Assembly: GCA_017560225.1 (NCBI GenBank) | Contig: JAFYOJ010000155.1 | Location: 1-37,996 of the forward strand | DNA from: Clostridia bacterium | Lineage (GTDB): Bacteria; Bacillota; Clostridia; UBA1212; UBA1255 | Direction of reading: 5' to 3' | DNA length: 37,996 nucleotides | Shown here: positions 29,351 through 37,092 of the stretch, in pieces | How the letters are laid out: each line of letters opens with the position of its first letter | How positions within the stretch are numbered: the stretch's first letter is position 1 | Program-made: the position numbers and the translations under genes | Notes under the pieces: model-generated | What the model was told of the DNA's origin: nothing | Databases searched by the model: none | What the model saw: only the letters and a program-made list of their open reading frames with translations

Positions 29351-29391
29351 CACTTATGACATAAATATATTTTATGAGGAAGTGGAACAAA

Positions 29392-31380
29392 ATGAAGCGA
29401 TTGGTCACTTTTATGTTAGCAATTATGATGATAAGTTCTTTGTTTTTGTGCAAACCATATCAGAATAAGGTGTTTGCCGACGAGAAACCGTCGTTGACCG
29501 TTCAGGTAAATAGTAATAATGAAATTGTGGTGAGTTGGAAGAACGTTTCTTTGGCCACAATGAACTCTCCGTCTGTTTCTGTTCAACTTCGGCGTGAGTC
29601 TAGTACGTCGGCTCTTGCCTATCATTATGTGTATAATACTTCCGCTTCCAATCCCGTTGATAATGGCACAAGCGGCTCTGTTACATTTAGTGATCAATAT
29701 GCAGGCGACGAAGGTCGCAAAGCAAATTTCCCGCTGGAAAATGGGGACTATTACGTGATTTTACGATTAAATGACGGTACCCTGAAACAGGATACACGAG
29801 TAGATTTTCACGTTGGCCCAAAACCGACGCTGACATTGGAGACACTTTCTTTCGCTGTTGGCAATCATATTCGGGTATCTTGGAAAGATGTATCGAAAGA
29901 CATTATGGAATCTCCGTCTGTTGCCATTCAACTTCGTCATCAGTCTGATACGGGAAGCGGTAAGGCGCTTGCCTATCATTATGTTTATAATACAACTATA
30001 AATAACGGGGAAGAAGGCTCTGTTACATTTAGTAATGAATATGCAGGCTCGGATGATCGCAAAGCAAATTTCCCTTTAGCTCCCGGAGAATACTATGTTA
30101 TACTTCGATTGAATGATGGTTCCTTAGAGGAAGAAACCCGTGTGGATTTCACCGTTGAACCGACACAGAAGATTGCCATGGAGAAGACCGTTTTTAAATA
30201 CGGAGAATCGATCCCGGTGAACTACAGTGGTATGAGCGGTGTTGCCAACGTGGCGATTCGTGTGTACCATACCGGCTATACGGTAGGTGTTTCAGGCAGC
30301 GAAGCTTATGTGACCATGACAGATGCATCCGGCAATGCTTTACATGGAGAGTCGGGTACGTTATCGTTCATGGCCGATGATGAACGACCGGCAGATGCAT
30401 CGAACAAGGTGCATTTCTTGCAGGCGGGCACTTATGAAGTGGTGATGGTCATTATCGGTAAGAATGAGGTATTTGGCAAAACGGTTGCTTTTGAAGTAAC
30501 CGATGTGGCGGGGAAGATTATGGCAGCTGCTCCGGAGCTGAAAGAATCTATTACGGTTCATTATATTGCCCATATTGATCGGACAATTCCGGCAGAAGAT
30601 GTGTCTATGAAATTTATCTTTAAGGGAGAAACCTTTACGGTGGCAGGCATTCCCGGCGAAACCCTTGGGAATAAGATTGTATACACATTCCCGTTAGAAG
30701 ATATTTTACCCCAAGATTTGGCTGAGAATATTTCGGCAGAGCTTTATGCCGGCGAGGAACTGTTAGATAGCCATACCGCGTATAGTGTACAACAATACTG
30801 TGTAAATATGCTGGCGAATACAACATCGGAGACCTTGAAGGTACTTTTGGTGAGCTTGCTTAATTATGGTGCAGAGGCACAAAAATATTTTACCGGTACT
30901 ACAGAGAATCTTATGAATGAGGTGTTGACGGAGTCCCAACGAGGCTATGTTTCTAACGTTGATATGAAACAAATAGAGGGTGTTGTGGCGACACCTGTAG
31001 ATGCTACCGATAATACAGGTGCGTATGTTTGGAAAGCTGCTACATTAGGCCTATATGATACGGTTCAAATTCGCGTGAAATTCTATGCGGAAACGACCGA
31101 AGGATTGGCAATTACGGCGAATGGAACCACCTATACCGACTTTGTTTCTATTGGGAATTATTTATATTACGTGTATATTCCTGTTTACGCAGATTGCTTT
31201 GCCGAGAAGTATACGATTTGCTTCCAAAATGCAAAAGGATTGCAAGGTGCGACATTGACATATAGTGTTAATACGTACATTTCCTACATTGCGAATCAGG
31301 AATCGTCTTCGGCGACCGATATTGCACAAGCAATTTGTAATTATGGTACGGCGGCTCAAAATTATGTGTTAACTTATTGA
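29392..31380 (+). CDS. Secreted surface protein with two Ig-like modules and duplicated C-terminal domains
   Basis: This 662-residue exported protein of unknown function has a signal peptide (about 1-29). Two copies of a 110-residue beta-rich module follow (33-142 and 145-257), marked by SPSV(S/A)(V/I)QLR, AYHYVYNT, SVTF, YAG and KANFPL..G.YYVILRLNDG. A third, diverged module lies at about 259-371. The C-terminal part has two related units ending YSV...NYGAEAQKYF (about 463-500) and YSV...NYGTAAQNYV (about 624-659), a domain type seen in secreted proteins of gut Clostridia. No anchor is evident. ATG 29392 is preferred over 29374: GAGGAAG is 9 bases upstream and the signal peptide then starts MKR. 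It leads a tight run of five exported proteins. Confidence 0.85.
   Translation: MKRLVTFMLAIMMISSLFLCKPYQNKVFADEKPSLTVQVNSNNEIVVSWKNVSLATMNSPSVSVQLRRESSTSALAYHYVYNTSASNPVDNGTSGSVTFSDQYAGDEGRKANFPLENGDYYVILRLNDGTLKQDTRVDFHVGPKPTLTLETLSFAVGNHIRVSWKDVSKDIMESPSVAIQLRHQSDTGSGKALAYHYVYNTTINNGEEGSVTFSNEYAGSDDRKANFPLAPGEYYVILRLNDGSLEEETRVDFTVEPTQKIAMEKTVFKYGESIPVNYSGMSGVANVAIRVYHTGYTVGVSGSEAYVTMTDASGNALHGESGTLSFMADDERPADASNKVHFLQAGTYEVVMVIIGKNEVFGKTVAFEVTDVAGKIMAAAPELKESITVHYIAHIDRTIPAEDVSMKFIFKGETFTVAGIPGETLGNKIVYTFPLEDILPQDLAENISAELYAGEELLDSHTAYSVQQYCVNMLANTTSETLKVLLVSLLNYGAEAQKYFTGTTENLMNEVLTESQRGYVSNVDMKQIEGVVATPVDATDNTGAYVWKAATLGLYDTVQIRVKFYAETTEGLAITANGTTYTDFVSIGNYLYYVYIPVYADCFAEKYTICFQNAKGLQGATLTYSVNTYISYIANQESSSATDIAQAICNYGTAAQNYVLTY
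29488..29817 (+). repeat. Ig-like module copy 1
   Basis: First copy of the shared 110-residue module (residues 33-142 of its protein). The DNA around AATATGCAGGC followed by GCAAAGCAAATTTCCC is closely similar to the other three strong copies. Confidence 0.8.
29824..30162 (+). repeat. Ig-like module copy 2
   Basis: Second copy (residues 145-257), next to copy 1 with almost no linker. It shares AYHYVYNT, SVTFSNEYAGSD and KANFPL with the copies in the anchored protein at 34602. Confidence 0.8.
30166..30504 (+). repeat. Ig-like module copy 3 (diverged)
   Basis: Residues 259-371 keep the strand layout of the module (FKYGESIPVNYSG at the start, SGTLSFMADD in the middle, LQAGTYEVVMVI near the end) but lack the AYHYVYNT core. 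This form is closest to the module inside the AraC-type regulator. Confidence 0.6.
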
Positions 31381-31394
31381 TTTTGGAGGATATG

Positions 31395-32273
31395 ATGAAG
31401 AAAATTTTATGCGGCATACTTGTTTGTATTTTGATGTTGTCTGTAGCGGCGTGTGGCTCTAATCAAAAGCCGCCCATTGCGTCTATGAGTCCGGAGGTTT
31501 CGGTAGAACCAACTGTGCCGGCTGCGACGGACGTACCTACTGTAGCACCGTCCCAACTGCCTACAGCACCTGTTACTGAAACGCCGGCGGCAACGCAAAC
31601 CCCGACACCTGTTGAATCTGTAACACCGGAAATTCTTAAGCTGGTTATAAACAGTGATGGTACGGTTTCTAATGGTGTAGTGGGCGGTCCTGCCATAGAA
31701 TCGTATGGCAACAAAACGGTAAGCGTAGACGCTGTTACCGGATTGAATGTGGTTACATTCCCGTCTAAGAATAGCGTGTACGACGTGCAAATTGGTGATT
31801 ACTACGGTGATATGGGTGAAGCTTTCTCTTTGGAAGTATATTTTAAATTAGATGCCATTCCCGCTGACGGATACGAAGGTATTGCAGAGAACTGCGAAGC
31901 TGGCGGTTTTGGGCTATATGTATTTAGCGATGCGAGCATCAAGTTCTATTTGAATTTAGAAGGCAGTTATGCAATTCTTACAGCACCGGAGAAAGCACAA
32001 GTGGGACAGTGGTACCATTGCGTATGTGTTTGGGATGGCGACCTTCTGCAGATGCATATGGATGGCCAGTTGGTAGATGAATATGTTAGTAATTGTGCCT
32101 ACGTTACGTTCCCTAGCGCAAACACAGCGTGGTATCTTTCCCTTGCCGGATGCTGTTCTGCAGGCGGCCATGGTGCGGGGGGAATCTGCGGTAGCATGGG
32201 CATTTGTAATTTGTACACAACGCCGTTGTCAGCAGATCAAGTTTCTTCTATTTATCAAGATTTAATGCAATAA
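31395..32273 (+). CDS. LamG-like (concanavalin A-fold) lipoprotein
   Basis: The 292-residue product is a lipoprotein: the signal peptide ends in the lipobox SVAAC with lipid-carrying Cys20. A Thr/Pro-rich linker (about 25-78, with TPTP-type repeats) reaches out from the membrane. The C-terminal domain (about 85-290) has EAFSLEVYFKLD, GQWYHCVCVWDG, MHMDGQLVDEY and a final SMGICNLYTTPLSADQV. These are typical of LamG/laminin-G-like jelly rolls that bind carbohydrate. It probably presents a glycan-binding domain at the cell surface. ATG 31395 is chosen with GGAGG at 31385-31389; ATG 31392 is equally in frame. It is 14 bases after the preceding stop. Confidence 0.87.
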   Translation: MKKILCGILVCILMLSVAACGSNQKPPIASMSPEVSVEPTVPAATDVPTVAPSQLPTAPVTETPAATQTPTPVESVTPEILKLVINSDGTVSNGVVGGPAIESYGNKTVSVDAVTGLNVVTFPSKNSVYDVQIGDYYGDMGEAFSLEVYFKLDAIPADGYEGIAENCEAGGFGLYVFSDASIKFYLNLEGSYAILTAPEKAQVGQWYHCVCVWDGDLLQMHMDGQLVDEYVSNCAYVTFPSANTAWYLSLAGCCSAGGHGAGGICGSMGICNLYTTPLSADQVSSIYQDLMQ

Positions 32274-32290
32274 ACTAGGAAGTGAAAGAT

Positions 32291-33409
32291 ATGAAACGAA
32301 CCTTGTTTGCACGATTGTTGCTTTTGTGCGTGCTTTGTGCGATGGTGCTCGGAAGCTTCATAGACGTAGGTCAAGCTTCTGTTACTGCCAGCGGGAATGA
32401 GTATGATCATATTGCGGCACTTTCGCTGGATGTGAAACATACGCTTCGATTTAACAACGATGGTAAATTTAAGATTGTAATCTTCTCGGACGTTCAGGAT
32501 GCGTACCCGTTAAAGGCAGATACGGTTCAGTATATGAATCAAATTTTGGATTCGGAACAGCCGGATTTGGTTCTGCTGGGTGGCGATAATCACAGCGGTT
32601 CACTGGGTAGTGAGAGTATCTTAAGGACGTATTTGACAGCATTGAGCGAACCTATGGAGACACGCAAGATTCCGTGGGCACAGGTGTACGGGAACCATGT
32701 AGAAGGTGGTTACAACTTTAAGATGGGGGCGCCGGGGAAAGAGAAACAGCAGGAAATTTTTGAATCTTTTTCCTATAATATTTCCAAAGCCGGAGACGTC
32801 TACGGTGTAGGCAACTATGTGTTACCGGTTCTTCGCTCTGATTCAGACAAAGTCGGATTTAATGTGTTTGCTTTGGATTCCCATACATATATGATTGACG
32901 GCAATGGCGGACAGAGCTTTGAGGACGCAGTTCTGTTGGATAGACCAATCTATGGCGGATTGAAAAAACACGTATATGAAACCATTCACTTTGACCAGAT
33001 TCGTTGGTATTGGAAGACTTCCGTTGCTTTGGAGAAGTATAGCGGTCAAAAGGTCGCTGCGATGATGTTCTTCCATATTCCGTTATACGAATATGAGTAT
33101 ATTGCGCAGAATCCCAATCAAACGGGCATGATCGGTGCGAACATGGATGGTATTTCTGCGCCTGAATTGAATTCCGGATTGATTCAAGCTTGCTATGAGC
33201 GTGGCGATGTAAAGGGTATTTTTGTGGGCCATTGTCATCGAAATGATTTTGTGGGTACCTACATAGGTATTCAATTGGGCTTTGTGCCAACCATTGGCAG
33301 TAATGCGTATTTCGATGCAAGCAATCGCGGTGCCCGTGTGATTGAAATTGACCAAAATGATGCGTTTAATTTCACAACACGTATGGTTTACTGCAAGGAT
33401 TTAAGATAA
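32291..33409 (+). CDS. Exported calcineurin-like metallophosphoesterase
   Basis: The 372-residue enzyme has a signal peptide (about 1-29, GQAS at the likely cleavage site) and acts outside the membrane. The five metallophosphoesterase motifs are intact: SDVQ (Asp67, Gln69), GGDN (Asp99), GNH (Asn135, His136), FFHIP (His262) and GHCH (His314, His316). It should hydrolyse a phosphomono- or diester with two metal ions. It resembles single-domain PhoD/Dcr2-like and CpdA-like enzymes, but the substrate is unknown. ATG 32291 with GGAAGTG upstream is preferred over GTG 32282. The next gene is its paralogue. Confidence 0.9.
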   Translation: MKRTLFARLLLLCVLCAMVLGSFIDVGQASVTASGNEYDHIAALSLDVKHTLRFNNDGKFKIVIFSDVQDAYPLKADTVQYMNQILDSEQPDLVLLGGDNHSGSLGSESILRTYLTALSEPMETRKIPWAQVYGNHVEGGYNFKMGAPGKEKQQEIFESFSYNISKAGDVYGVGNYVLPVLRSDSDKVGFNVFALDSHTYMIDGNGGQSFEDAVLLDRPIYGGLKKHVYETIHFDQIRWYWKTSVALEKYSGQKVAAMMFFHIPLYEYEYIAQNPNQTGMIGANMDGISAPELNSGLIQACYERGDVKGIFVGHCHRNDFVGTYIGIQLGFVPTIGSNAYFDASNRGARVIEIDQNDAFNFTTRMVYCKDLR

Positions 33410-33425
33410 GGAGAGGTGAACAAAC

Positions 33426-34556
33426 ATGTCTAAGAAATTAATCAGAACAGTTGTTTGCCTGTTTGTATGTATGGCCTTGTGTGCTGGATTGGTGGCTTGC
33501 GGAAACGTAACAAATCCATCTTCGCCTACTGCCGGCAGTGGTGCGCCTGTTGCGACGGTAAAGCCGGAGGATCTTGTGACGGGTAAAATGGATTTACACT
33601 TTGATTCTCTGGGAAATTTCAAAGTCGTTATTTTCTCTGATCTTCGTGTGTCGAAAAACGTAGATGCGAAAGTAATTGAGAATATTGAAACCATTCTAAA
33701 CAGGGAAAATCCATCTTTGGTTCTTTTGGGTGGCGATTTGCATGATGGTAGCATTTCCAACGAACAGGAATTGCGCACTGTTTTGGATCAACTCAATGCA
33801 CCTATGGAAGAACGGAAGATTCCTTGGTGTCACACATTTGGTGTACTTACTGAAGGCACGAAGACCGTGAAGAGTGGCTTCGGCCGTGAGGAACAAATGC
33901 GTATTTATCAATCGTATCCTTATTGTATTTCCGGTTCGGATACCGCCGATACGTACGGTGTGAGCAATTATGTGCTTCCTGTTTATATTCCGGATCAAGA
34001 TTCTGATAAGAAGAATGACAAAATTGGATTTAACGTATGGTGTTTGGATGCCAATAGTTATTTGAATGACTATGTGGCGGGTTTTGAAGATCAGGTTGTA
34101 CTGAAACGTAAATTAAGCGGTGGCAGCGACTTGGATTGTTTACACTATTCGCAGTTGCTTTGGTATTGGGACACGTCTGTTGCTTTAGAGAACTATAATG
34201 GCAAACAAATTCCGGGCATGATGTATTTCCAGGTGCCGATTTATCAATTTCAGTTATTGATTCGAAATCAACAACAAACCGGTGTACAAGGAACGTTGAA
34301 TAGCGGAACCAGAAAGGTCACGGCTTCCGAGCGGGAATCAGGCGCCTTGTGGGCATGCTATGAACGGGGAGACGTCAAGCATATTTTCTGCGGGTATAAT
34401 GAGAAGAATGATTTCAGCGGTAAATATTTAGGCATTACAATGGCTTTTTGCTCTACGGTAGGTACTTCTGCTGTACAGGAAACCGCCGGTGCTCGCGTTG
34501 TGGCTATTTCTCAAAATGGTGCTGCTGTAACAACGTCGATGTCTTATCTGAAATAA
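33426..34556 (+). CDS. Lipoprotein metallophosphoesterase paralogue lacking most metal ligands
   Basis: The 376-residue protein is a lipoprotein (lipobox LVAC, Cys25) and a full-length paralogue of the preceding enzyme. Shared segments include VLLGGD, NYVLPV, WYW(K/D)TSVALE and ACYERGDVK. Aligned to the active enzyme, the two Asp ligands remain (Asp72, Asp104). Gln69 is Arg74, Asn135-His136 are Val140-Leu141, His262 is Gln269, and His314/His316 are Tyr324/Glu326. It should therefore be catalytically dead or greatly altered, perhaps a binding or regulatory partner of the active enzyme. AAGGAGAGG precedes the ATG. The reading frame is intact, so it is not a decaying pseudogene. Confidence 0.88.
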   Translation: MSKKLIRTVVCLFVCMALCAGLVACGNVTNPSSPTAGSGAPVATVKPEDLVTGKMDLHFDSLGNFKVVIFSDLRVSKNVDAKVIENIETILNRENPSLVLLGGDLHDGSISNEQELRTVLDQLNAPMEERKIPWCHTFGVLTEGTKTVKSGFGREEQMRIYQSYPYCISGSDTADTYGVSNYVLPVYIPDQDSDKKNDKIGFNVWCLDANSYLNDYVAGFEDQVVLKRKLSGGSDLDCLHYSQLLWYWDTSVALENYNGKQIPGMMYFQVPIYQFQLLIRNQQQTGVQGTLNSGTRKVTASERESGALWACYERGDVKHIFCGYNEKNDFSGKYLGITMAFCSTVGTSAVQETAGARVVAISQNGAAVTTSMSYLK

Positions 34557-34601
34557 GTGCGTTTATAGATATTTAAATTTTGTATAAGAGGGTGGAATGA
34601 A

Positions 34602-35552
34602 ATGAGAAAAATTTTTTCAATTGTATTGGTACTTTCTTTGCTGTGTGCTATGTTTGCTGTAGAGGTTCAGGGCGCTGGTAGTGGAGCTCCGTCACTTTCG
34701 GTAAACGTGAAGAGTGCTAATGAAATTGTAGTCACGTGGGAGAATGTAACGCAGGAAACAATGGGTTCTCCTTCCACGTCTATTCAAATTCGAAGAGGGG
34801 ATGATACAGGAACGGGCGTAACGTTGGCTTATCATTATGCCTATAACACAACAGAGAATAATGGTGCCAGCGGCTCTGTTACGTTCAGCAATGAATACGC
34901 CGGCTCTGATAATCGCAAGGCGAATTTCCCGTTGACTGATGGTAATTATTACGCAGTTCTTCGACTGAATGACGGTTCCTTAGTAGAGTCAACGAAGACG
35001 GAGTTTACGGTAGGTGCACCGCCGGCTCCCCCTGAGTTGTCTGTACAGGTCAACAACGCTAATGAGATTGTGGTTAATTGGAAAAATGTGGTGCAGGAGG
35101 AAATTGGATCTCCGTCTGTGTCCATCCAAGTACGTAAGGAGAGTGACACCGGGACAGGTACCTCTCTTGCCTATCACTATGTTTATAATACTACAGTGAA
35201 TAACGGCGTAGAAGGAACAGTTACGTTCAGTAATGAATATGCCGGTTCGGATAACCGAAAAGAAAATTTCCCGTTGGAAGAAGGTACGTATTACGTTATT
35301 CTTCGTTTGGAGAACGGTTCTTTAATGGCAAATACAAAGACCGAATTTACTGTGAGTGCGGTGGAGCCAAGTGCAACGCCTAGTGAAAAGCCTGTTGAAA
35401 GTCCCAGTGCTACGCCCGAGAGTACGCTTGAAGCAACATCTACTCCTACACCGAATCAACCTACCGGCGACACGTCGTTGCTTTGGATTGCCTCTGTTAT
35501 GCTTGCATCTGCGGTGGTTTATGTTATGATAAAACGAAAGATTAAAGCGTAA
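34602..35552 (+). CDS. Anchored surface protein with two Ig-like modules
   Basis: The 316-residue protein has a signal peptide (about 1-24), two copies of the module also found in the first gene of this run (30-138 and 143-252), and a Pro/Ser/Thr/Glu-rich linker (253-286). It ends in an anchoring tail. The tail has NQPTGD (285-290), a membrane helix (about 292-310) and a basic KRKIKA end. This layout is that of a sortase-type sorting signal, with NQPTG in place of LPxTG. If sortase does not accept it, the helix still anchors it in the membrane. The gap to the previous gene is 45 bases. The function is unknown; the modules may bind the same partner as those of the first protein. Confidence 0.85.
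   Translation: MRKIFSIVLVLSLLCAMFAVEVQGAGSGAPSLSVNVKSANEIVVTWENVTQETMGSPSTSIQIRRGDDTGTGVTLAYHYAYNTTENNGASGSVTFSNEYAGSDNRKANFPLTDGNYYAVLRLNDGSLVESTKTEFTVGAPPAPPELSVQVNNANEIVVNWKNVVQEEIGSPSVSIQVRKESDTGTGTSLAYHYVYNTTVNNGVEGTVTFSNEYAGSDNRKENFPLEEGTYYVILRLENGSLMANTKTEFTVSAVEPSATPSEKPVESPSATPESTLEATSTPTPNQPTGDTSLLWIASVMLASAVVYVMIKRKIKA
34689..35015 (+). repeat. Ig-like module copy 4
   Basis: Residues 30-138 of the anchored protein, with SPSTSIQIR, AYHYAYNTT, SVTFSNEYAGSD, RKANFPL and LRLNDGSL. Confidence 0.8.
35028..35357 (+). repeat. Ig-like module copy 5
   Basis: Residues 143-252 of the anchored protein, with SPSVSIQVR, AYHYVYNTT, TVTFSNEYAGSD, RKENFPL and LRLENGSL. It follows copy 4 after a four-residue Pro/Ala linker. 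Confidence 0.8.
35503..35530 (+). promoter_or_regulatory. Candidate promoter of the AraC-type gene
   Basis: TTGCAT (35503-35508), a 16-base spacer and TATGAT (35525-35530), preceded by an extended -10 TG at 35522-35523. It lies inside the end of the anchored protein gene. Transcription would start near 35537, about 70 bases before the regulator. Confidence 0.5.
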
Positions 35553-35604
35553 GGAGTAGATTGCCATTAAGTGTTGGATCCCTATATTTCATTCAACCAA
35601 AAGA

Positions 35605-37092
35605 GTGAAATATTATGATGTATACTTGCAATGTGATTCGAGTGGCTCCCAAACCGTAGGCGTGCAAGGTTGGACGAATTGTACGAGTTACAAAGATCAG
35701 GATGAAACTCGAATTGTACTGACGCTCTGTAATCCAGAGAAGGGTATTTCTTTACCCTTCTCTGGATATTTGCGTTTTGAAATACCGGAAGAGGGACAAA
35801 TTGACAACAACGTAGGACTATGCATAGACATTGATGCGGAAGCTTGTACCATTAATCAAGTGCTGCTGAACAATATTTATGAAAAGCCTATTTTGTTAAC
35901 TATGGAAGAATTACGATTTGGTCGCGCGGTGCAATATAAACATCCGCCAGTTTCGTTGTTCCCGGTTTCCTCCGCTTCTATTGTGACGCCGGATACTTCC
36001 GGAGAAGACGGTAATCTTCGTTTTTGTTTTGATCATTTGCGGGAAGATGAATATTTACTCTTCTATCGAAATGTGGATCAAGGGGAGTATTTTAAGGAAA
36101 ATGTTTGCGAGATTTTCTTGCCCAAAAAATATTATTTGCCCGGTGAAGCAATTACAGTTTCGTATAGGAATGTATATGATTTTGAACAGGGCAAGAATAA
36201 AAATGCCACCAACGTTATGCTTTATCGAAGCAAGGATGTGCCGGGGAAGATACAAAGTCAGGAATATGTAATCCTTAAATTAGATACTGTTTGTCGCAGC
36301 TCATCCGGAATGGTGGTATTTCCACGAGATGGGGTTCGATTTCTAAATACCAATGCAACCGGTCGTTACGCTAGTGGTGAATATTGTATGCGACTTTTAC
36401 AAGCTTACCAACCGCTGTGTTCGGAACGGGCGCTTGTGATTACGGATGTGATGACAGAAACATGGTTAAATATGCCCTTGTCTGCAGGAATGTTCTATAT
36501 GAAAGCAACAAATATATGCGGCAATGTGGTTTTTCCGGAAGCGTCTGATGAGCAAATCACTTGCATACGTTTTACCTGTCCATCGCCTATCGTAGATATT
36601 TTTGAACAAAGCTTGCACTATATGCCGTATCTACAAAAGCATATTGGAACCCTTAAAGAAAAACGTACTTTGTGTGAATCTGCACTGAATGCGCTTTTGA
36701 ATTTTATTCTGCATGGCATTTACGTTGAAAACGTACATGATATGAGTACGAAAATTGAAAAGCATCGTGCCGGCTTGAACTATCATCAAATTGTCAGCTT
36801 TATCGAGGAGAATATCTGTGGCGATGTCAGCATGCAAGCATTGTGCAAGCAATTCTATTGTAGCGAAAGTTATTTGTCCCATCTCTTTAAGAAGCATATG
36901 CACATCAGTATTGCGACATACATTTATCGTGCCAAAATTGCAAAAGCGAAGGTTTTATTAGCTCAAAATGATAAGCGTATCTCTGAAATTGCTGAACTTC
37001 TACAGTATTCAGATATTTACTCGTTTTCTAGATCGTTTAAGAAAATAACCGGCATGTCCCCCTCGGCGTACCGCCGTTTGCAACAAAAATAA
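35605..37092 (+). CDS. AraC-family transcriptional regulator with Ig-like module in its sensor part
   Basis: This 495-residue cytoplasmic protein has no membrane segment. The C-terminal AraC/XylS DNA-binding domain (about 392-492) has two helix-turn-helices: VSMQALCKQFYCSESYLSHLFKK and RISEIAELLQYSDIYSFSRSFKKITGMSPSAYRR. Residues about 168-281 look like a diverged copy of the module carried by the exported proteins: YYLPGEAITVSYRNV, SGMVVFP and ASGEYCMRLLQ align with module strands. The N-terminal 165 residues are unrecognised and cysteine-rich. GTG 35605 is the start with only a weak AAAAGAG before it. Lying 52 bases after the exported genes, it probably regulates them. A 15-bp perfect inverted repeat lies within codons 43-55. 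Confidence 0.85.
   Translation: MKYYDVYLQCDSSGSQTVGVQGWTNCTSYKDQDETRIVLTLCNPEKGISLPFSGYLRFEIPEEGQIDNNVGLCIDIDAEACTINQVLLNNIYEKPILLTMEELRFGRAVQYKHPPVSLFPVSSASIVTPDTSGEDGNLRFCFDHLREDEYLLFYRNVDQGEYFKENVCEIFLPKKYYLPGEAITVSYRNVYDFEQGKNKNATNVMLYRSKDVPGKIQSQEYVILKLDTVCRSSSGMVVFPRDGVRFLNTNATGRYASGEYCMRLLQAYQPLCSERALVITDVMTETWLNMPLSAGMFYMKATNICGNVVFPEASDEQITCIRFTCPSPIVDIFEQSLHYMPYLQKHIGTLKEKRTLCESALNALLNFILHGIYVENVHDMSTKIEKHRAGLNYHQIVSFIEENICGDVSMQALCKQFYCSESYLSHLFKKHMHISIATYIYRAKIAKAKVLLAQNDKRISEIAELLQYSDIYSFSRSFKKITGMSPSAYRRLQQK
35732..35767 (+). other. Perfect 15-bp inverted repeat inside the AraC-type gene
   Basis: ATCCAGAGAAGGGTA (35732-35746) is the exact reverse complement of TACCCTTCTCTGGAT (35753-35767), with a TTTCTT loop. 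It lies about 130 bases into the coding region, and only short T runs follow. It could be an internal operator for autoregulation or a strong mRNA hairpin. Confidence 0.8.

Follow-up and report, generated by a model that had tools for sequence, protein, structure and literature searches.

The regulator described here is the final gene of a cluster on the forward strand at positions 29374–37092 of the window (the whole stretch of 37,996 nucleotides that was analysed), from a Clostridia bacterium of the gut. The cluster consisted of the following genes:

29374–31380, forward strand: exported protein with a signal-like N-terminus, three modules (29488–29817, 29824–30159, and 30166–30501, placed by the module profile), and a C-terminal domain
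31377–32273, forward strand: lipoprotein with a laminin-G-like lectin domain (Pfam Laminin_G_3, E=7.7e-13)
32282–33409, forward strand: exported calcineurin-like phosphoesterase (Pfam Metallophos, E=2.2e-8)
33426–34556, forward strand: second calcineurin-like phosphoesterase, a lipoprotein, assigned from its likeness by eye to the first (Metallophos match weak, E=0.008, below the cut-off)
34602–35552, forward strand: two-module surface protein (modules at 34689–35015 and 35031–35357) with a C-terminal PTGD, a membrane segment, and a basic tail
35566–37092, forward strand: AraC-type regulator gene (P0001) in its likely true extent, with an ATT start (HTH_18, E=1.9e-20)

The C-terminal ends of the surface module proteins (window 35452–35552; P0012, P0013, and P0015) had a conserved PTGD or TTGD, then a hydrophobic segment and a basic tail, an arrangement like that of a non-canonical sortase signal.

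The open reading frame of the regulator (35605–37092, forward strand) encodes a protein of 495 residues, and GTG at 35605 is its first conventional start. A ribosome-binding site (AAGGAG, 35551–35556) overlapped the stop codon of the upstream surface-protein gene, and the in-frame residues KCWIPIFHSTKR upstream of the GTG aligned with the starts of the paralogues (MRFDIPVDCP.. and ..YKFPIIHST..). Because AAGGAG is well spaced and KCWIPIFHSTKR matches the paralogue starts, translation probably begins at ATT 35566, 9 bases past AAGGAG; this ATT is either a rare initiator or a sequence error. Within the regulator coding sequence there was a perfect 15-bp inverted repeat (window 35732–35767, ATCCAGAGAAGGGTA-TTTCTT-TACCCTTCTCTGGAT), one of only two perfect hairpins of at least 13 bp (loop 3–10) in the window. 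This hairpin was unique in the genome, had an RNA fold z of -4.6, and had no internal counterpart in the full-length regulator paralogues that were examined. It could be an intragenic terminator-like element lowering regulator expression.

In P0001, Pfam identified HTH_18 (73.4 bits, cut-off 33.6) at residues 413–491 and HTH_AraC (59.9 bits), and the protein has the C-terminal DNA-binding domain with two helix-turn-helix motifs by which AraC/XylS proteins are recognized. Neither a signal peptide nor a membrane segment was found in P0001 (maximum 19-residue hydropathy of 1.31, versus 1.9–2.6 in the exported neighbours). With residues counted from the GTG, the protein was divided as follows:

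35605–36105, forward strand: N-terminal domain, residues 1–167, found only in these regulators
36106–36450, forward strand: diverged Ig-like module, residues 168–282, assigned as a homologue of the exported modules by profile and hhalign
36478–36639, forward strand: remnant of the C-terminal half of an AraC cupin, residues about 292–345, assigned by profile and hhalign
36640–36777, forward strand: linker helices, residues 346–391, from AlphaFold2 secondary structure and colinearity with ordinary AraC proteins
36778–37077, forward strand: AraC DNA-binding domain with two helix-turn-helix motifs, residues 392–491, from Pfam and the PDB relatives 3oou and 2k9s (AraC)

A complete cupin (AraC_binding) was not detected in P0001, and residues 1–339 gave no match in Pfam. 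A profile of residues 283–345 matched the final part of the cupin in six ordinary AraC regulators. When residues 283–495 were compared with 27 ordinary AraC proteins by hhalign, the alignment was colinear from residue 292 over 203 columns (E=1.7e-41), and the cupin-remnant segment alone gave E=1.2e-4. The alignment with ordinary cupin AraC proteins began midway through the cupin and took in residues 292–495, whereas residues 1–282 did not align. The N-terminal domain, residues 1–167, matched no known family among Pfam and PDB sequences; it was also tried as a second module and rejected, as its hhalign score against the exported modules was 14.6 and column shuffles reached 17. Judging from its sequence, the regulator is a chimera in which the N-terminal domain and one module occupy the place of the cupin front. 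Because of the colinear alignment and the novelty of residues 1–167, we infer that the cupin front was replaced by the new domain and the Ig-like module, rather than having diverged extremely. Two cysteine residues at the edges of the regulator module, Cys168 and Cys272 (window 36106–36108 and 36418–36420), were invariant in five of five regulators; the first was not present in the exported modules, and the second was present in 3 of 26.

The initial annotation had proposed that this cytoplasmic regulator carries a diverged copy of the module of its exported neighbours, with the third module of the first surface protein as the example. A BLASTP comparison of P0001 with the first surface protein found nothing significant (E=0.76), so the proposal could not be settled within the window; an HMM of the five window modules alone gave P0001 9.4 bits, against 6.9 for the top decoy. 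We also used an HMM of 27 exported modules, collected from the exported proteins of this genome and of the sister species with the regulators excluded. This HMM matched P0001 with 42.1 bits at residues 169–279 and four related regulators with 19.9–26.6 bits at the equivalent position; among 20,005 decoys made by shuffling or reversing regulators, the top score was 10.4 bits. HMMs from disjoint sets of modules also found P0001, with 29.0 bits for those of the other operon of this genome and 36.9 bits for those of the sister species only. When all six frames of the genome were searched, the exported-module profile matched window 36115–36429 at E=2.2e-13. In the reverse direction, the regulator-module profile found in 291 genomes only the three regulators of this genome and eight exported modules, and the next matches (E=0.005) were in stop-broken frames. 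Profile–profile comparison of the regulator and exported modules by hhalign gave a probability of 98.2 and E=3e-14 over 98 columns with a score of 76, versus 17 or less for column-shuffled controls and 11–15 for other regions of these regulators. The match was thus significant in both directions over the whole module, as for a member of the exported Ig-like family.

The regulator and exported modules had not only core residues but also loop residues in common (K174, E181, G214, S218, P240, D242, and R245), among them the loop motifs G-D-x-P-G-x-x-x-S and F-P-x-D-x-x-R. These results showed that residues 168–282 are almost certainly homologous to, and long diverged from, the exported modules. 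The diverged copy claimed by the initial annotation was therefore borne out, with its boundaries (residues 168–281) correct to within about one residue. The third module of the first surface protein, in contrast, did not hold up as a special partner, since better single matches were found in other operons, such as P0012 residues 263–372 (28% identity, pairwise E=2e-8). Chance or convergence, in which an unrelated beta-rich domain acquired a similar strand pattern, would agree with the weak window-only profile and with a pairwise comparison that found no direct similarity to the first surface protein of the window, but is very improbable given reciprocal whole-genome profile matches (E 1e-7 to 1e-13), much lower decoy scores, and the loop motifs in common.

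The predicted structure of the exported module was a seven-strand Ig-like sandwich (pLDDT 95.7). Its matches to PDB folds were weak and non-specific (E about 1e-3, TM about 0.5); they included Ig-like domains of GH3 enzymes and GbpA, and no ligand was named in them. In the AlphaFold2 model of the regulator, made from three sequences, the module had a pLDDT of about 33, with five strands near the matching places; because this model is unusable in the module region, a fold common to the two kinds of module is a prediction from sequence. By Ig topology, the A-B, C-D, and E-F loops, which carry residues in common, would lie at one pole of the domain, an arrangement that a common binding site and a common domain interface would explain alike.

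Five copies of the regulator were found in two species of one genus, three in this genome, of which the two further ones showed 33% identity, and two in the sister species. All five were in operons that encode exported calcineurin-like phosphoesterases, and in four cases exported module proteins were encoded upstream; in every case the regulator gene was located about 8–40 bases after an exported-protein or isomerase gene on the same strand. The LamG lipoprotein or paired phosphoesterases were also present in the regulator clusters where the contig reaches far enough, and in several operons a xylose-isomerase-like TIM-barrel gene was immediately 5' of the regulator. The operon type is the same in all five copies and the protein has no signal peptide or membrane segment, in agreement with the earlier description of a cytoplasmic regulator beside exported proteins. 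The content of the operons suggests that a sugar- or phosphate-bearing compound is taken up and used. In the C113 copy (L013:1848–8956), a phosphoesterase gene was directly followed by the regulator gene, with no module proteins alongside; the sister species has two (L016). Partnership with an exported module protein is thus not obligatory.

Outside the genus, no relatives of the sensor half were found among 391 genomes of the class, 398 of the phylum, viral contigs, and a GTDB contig scan; the matches in these scans were a pair of contigs from a single water-deer rectum MAG (RGIG9099), which are apparently the same as contigs of the sister genome G006. The module family itself was wider in the order, being carried there by large exported proteins that have dockerin-like ends. 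One exported protein from a different genus of the same bacterial family (L101:4974–6974) had a module (residues 57–152) followed by a Metallophos calcineurin-like phosphoesterase domain, and this fusion suggests that the module belongs with phosphoesterases. At a locus of the same type (L066:1–2349), a module protein and a xylose-isomerase-like gene adjoined an ordinary cupin AraC regulator. In the sister genome, one contig (L015:1–222) had, instead of the front of the regulator gene, an unrelated A+T-rich sequence of about 220 bases that includes a 14-bp hairpin, and that front was carried on another contig; the junction is possibly an element end or a strain-level rearrangement.

In the phylogenetic tree of 31 modules, five of them from regulators, the regulator modules grouped together in a single clade (100/100) whose stem measured 1.91 substitutions per column, and they were not nearest to the modules of their own operons. 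Four of the five surface modules of the window (29488–30159 and 34689–35357) formed a tight clade of their own (100/100, stem 1.05), as if homogenized within the operon. The single regulator clade, its long stem, and its placement apart from the modules of the same operons indicate that the fusion predates the operon copies, and the simplest reading would be that it occurred once, before the copying of the operon and the split of the two species. The initial annotation had also suggested capture of the domain from the neighbour gene, and the tree contradicted this: a recent capture from the adjacent surface gene, for which the adjacency of the genes speaks, is highly unlikely with the regulator modules in one long-stemmed clade and with the window modules alone barely recognizing the regulator. 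Between the species, the identity of the regulator module was 85 and 72%, and that of the N-terminal domain was 65 and 47%. The regulator module was among the best-conserved parts of the regulator outside the helix-turn-helix domain, which indicated that it is under constraint. The surface modules were far less conserved across species, the best cross-species matches of the C20 protein being 25–38%.

We propose that P0001 is a one-component AraC-family activator with a rebuilt cupin effector domain. The rebuilt half would sense, after uptake, a soluble product of the material handled by the surface modules, the lectin, and the phosphoesterases, and the regulator would control the operon that holds its own gene. 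We give this explanation as a whole a probability of roughly 0.5. As to its parts, the rebuilt half is probably the sensor and its own operon probably the target, and the ligand would be an imported one related to what the surface modules bind. That the regulator module binds the same ligand as the surface modules is plausible, though less likely than not. We regard as doubtful the broader idea that homologous modules serve the regulator, and the exported proteins under its control, for binding one and the same ligand or one another, capture outside and control inside having co-evolved from one domain family.

The main rival explanation is a spacer role, in which the regulator module would be only a structural connector or dimerization domain, the fast-evolving residues 1–167 would sense, and the surface modules would likewise be spacers. 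Ig-like folds are often spacers, and tandem Ig-like modules of surface proteins are often stalks. That the exported module matched PDB entries only weakly and non-specifically, Ig-like domains of GH3 enzymes among them, is consistent with this role. The N-terminal domain could be the sensor, since it changes fast and varies more between orthologues than any other large part, whereas the module is highly conserved. A spacer would, however, need no origin in this particular family, and the residues in common with the exported modules extend beyond the core into the loops; we consider the spacer role a possibility to be taken seriously, but less likely than the activator proposed above. In another alternative, the regulator module would contact surface modules not yet exported, by homotypic interaction, and would read the export backlog rather than a small ligand. 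The same module family in the same operon would allow this; secretory precursors, however, are usually unfolded in the cytoplasm, and the C113 copy has no adjacent module protein, which makes a backlog sensor improbable.

AraC-type regulators usually have a cupin as effector domain, and the ligands of these effector domains are difficult to guess. P0001 represents a new sensor architecture within this known regulator family. If the activator proposed above senses an imported product, the sharing of a domain between the regulator and the exported proteins would offer a handle on the ligand: the ligand of the surface modules would be the first candidate for the inducer, and vice versa. The domain family has moved between surface proteins and a cytoplasmic regulator and was retained through the copying of the operon, and a signal of the kind that the cell handles outside may also be read inside.

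Compared with AraC/XylS regulators with an N-terminal cupin (PF02311 and PF12833), P0001 aligned colinearly in the double helix-turn-helix domain, the linker, and the back of the cupin, but its cupin front is replaced by the new domain and the Ig-like module, with no AraC_binding or Cupin match. In the TIGR04094 family, which comprises regulators beside YSIRK surface antigens, an AraC-type regulator adjoins surface-protein genes, as does P0001. EbrB of Enterococcus faecium drives the adjacent esp operon, and this system, with the same layout as that of P0001, is a precedent for AraC control of a surface-protein operon (PMC3669262). P0001 was not a member of TIGR04094, as it scored 93.4 bits against a cut-off of 200 and matched only model positions 271–383, the helix-turn-helix part. 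We know of no domain common to the regulator and the surface protein in the TIGR04094 or EbrB systems, and the literature, of which our coverage was incomplete, yielded no AraC regulator described as having a module in common with its exported neighbours. Y_Y_Y Ig-like domains occur in Bacteroides hybrid two-component regulators, which are membrane histidine kinases with a periplasmic part that end in an AraC-type helix-turn-helix domain. P0001 likewise combines an Ig-like domain with an AraC-type helix-turn-helix end, but it has no membrane segment or kinase. The closest likeness was to the exported Ig-like modules of the genus, which belong to no Pfam family and have the strand-bearing and loop motifs of the regulator module. 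In contrast to these, the regulator module is present as a single copy in a signal-less protein, forms its own long-stemmed clade, and has an invariant Cys168 together with Cys272.
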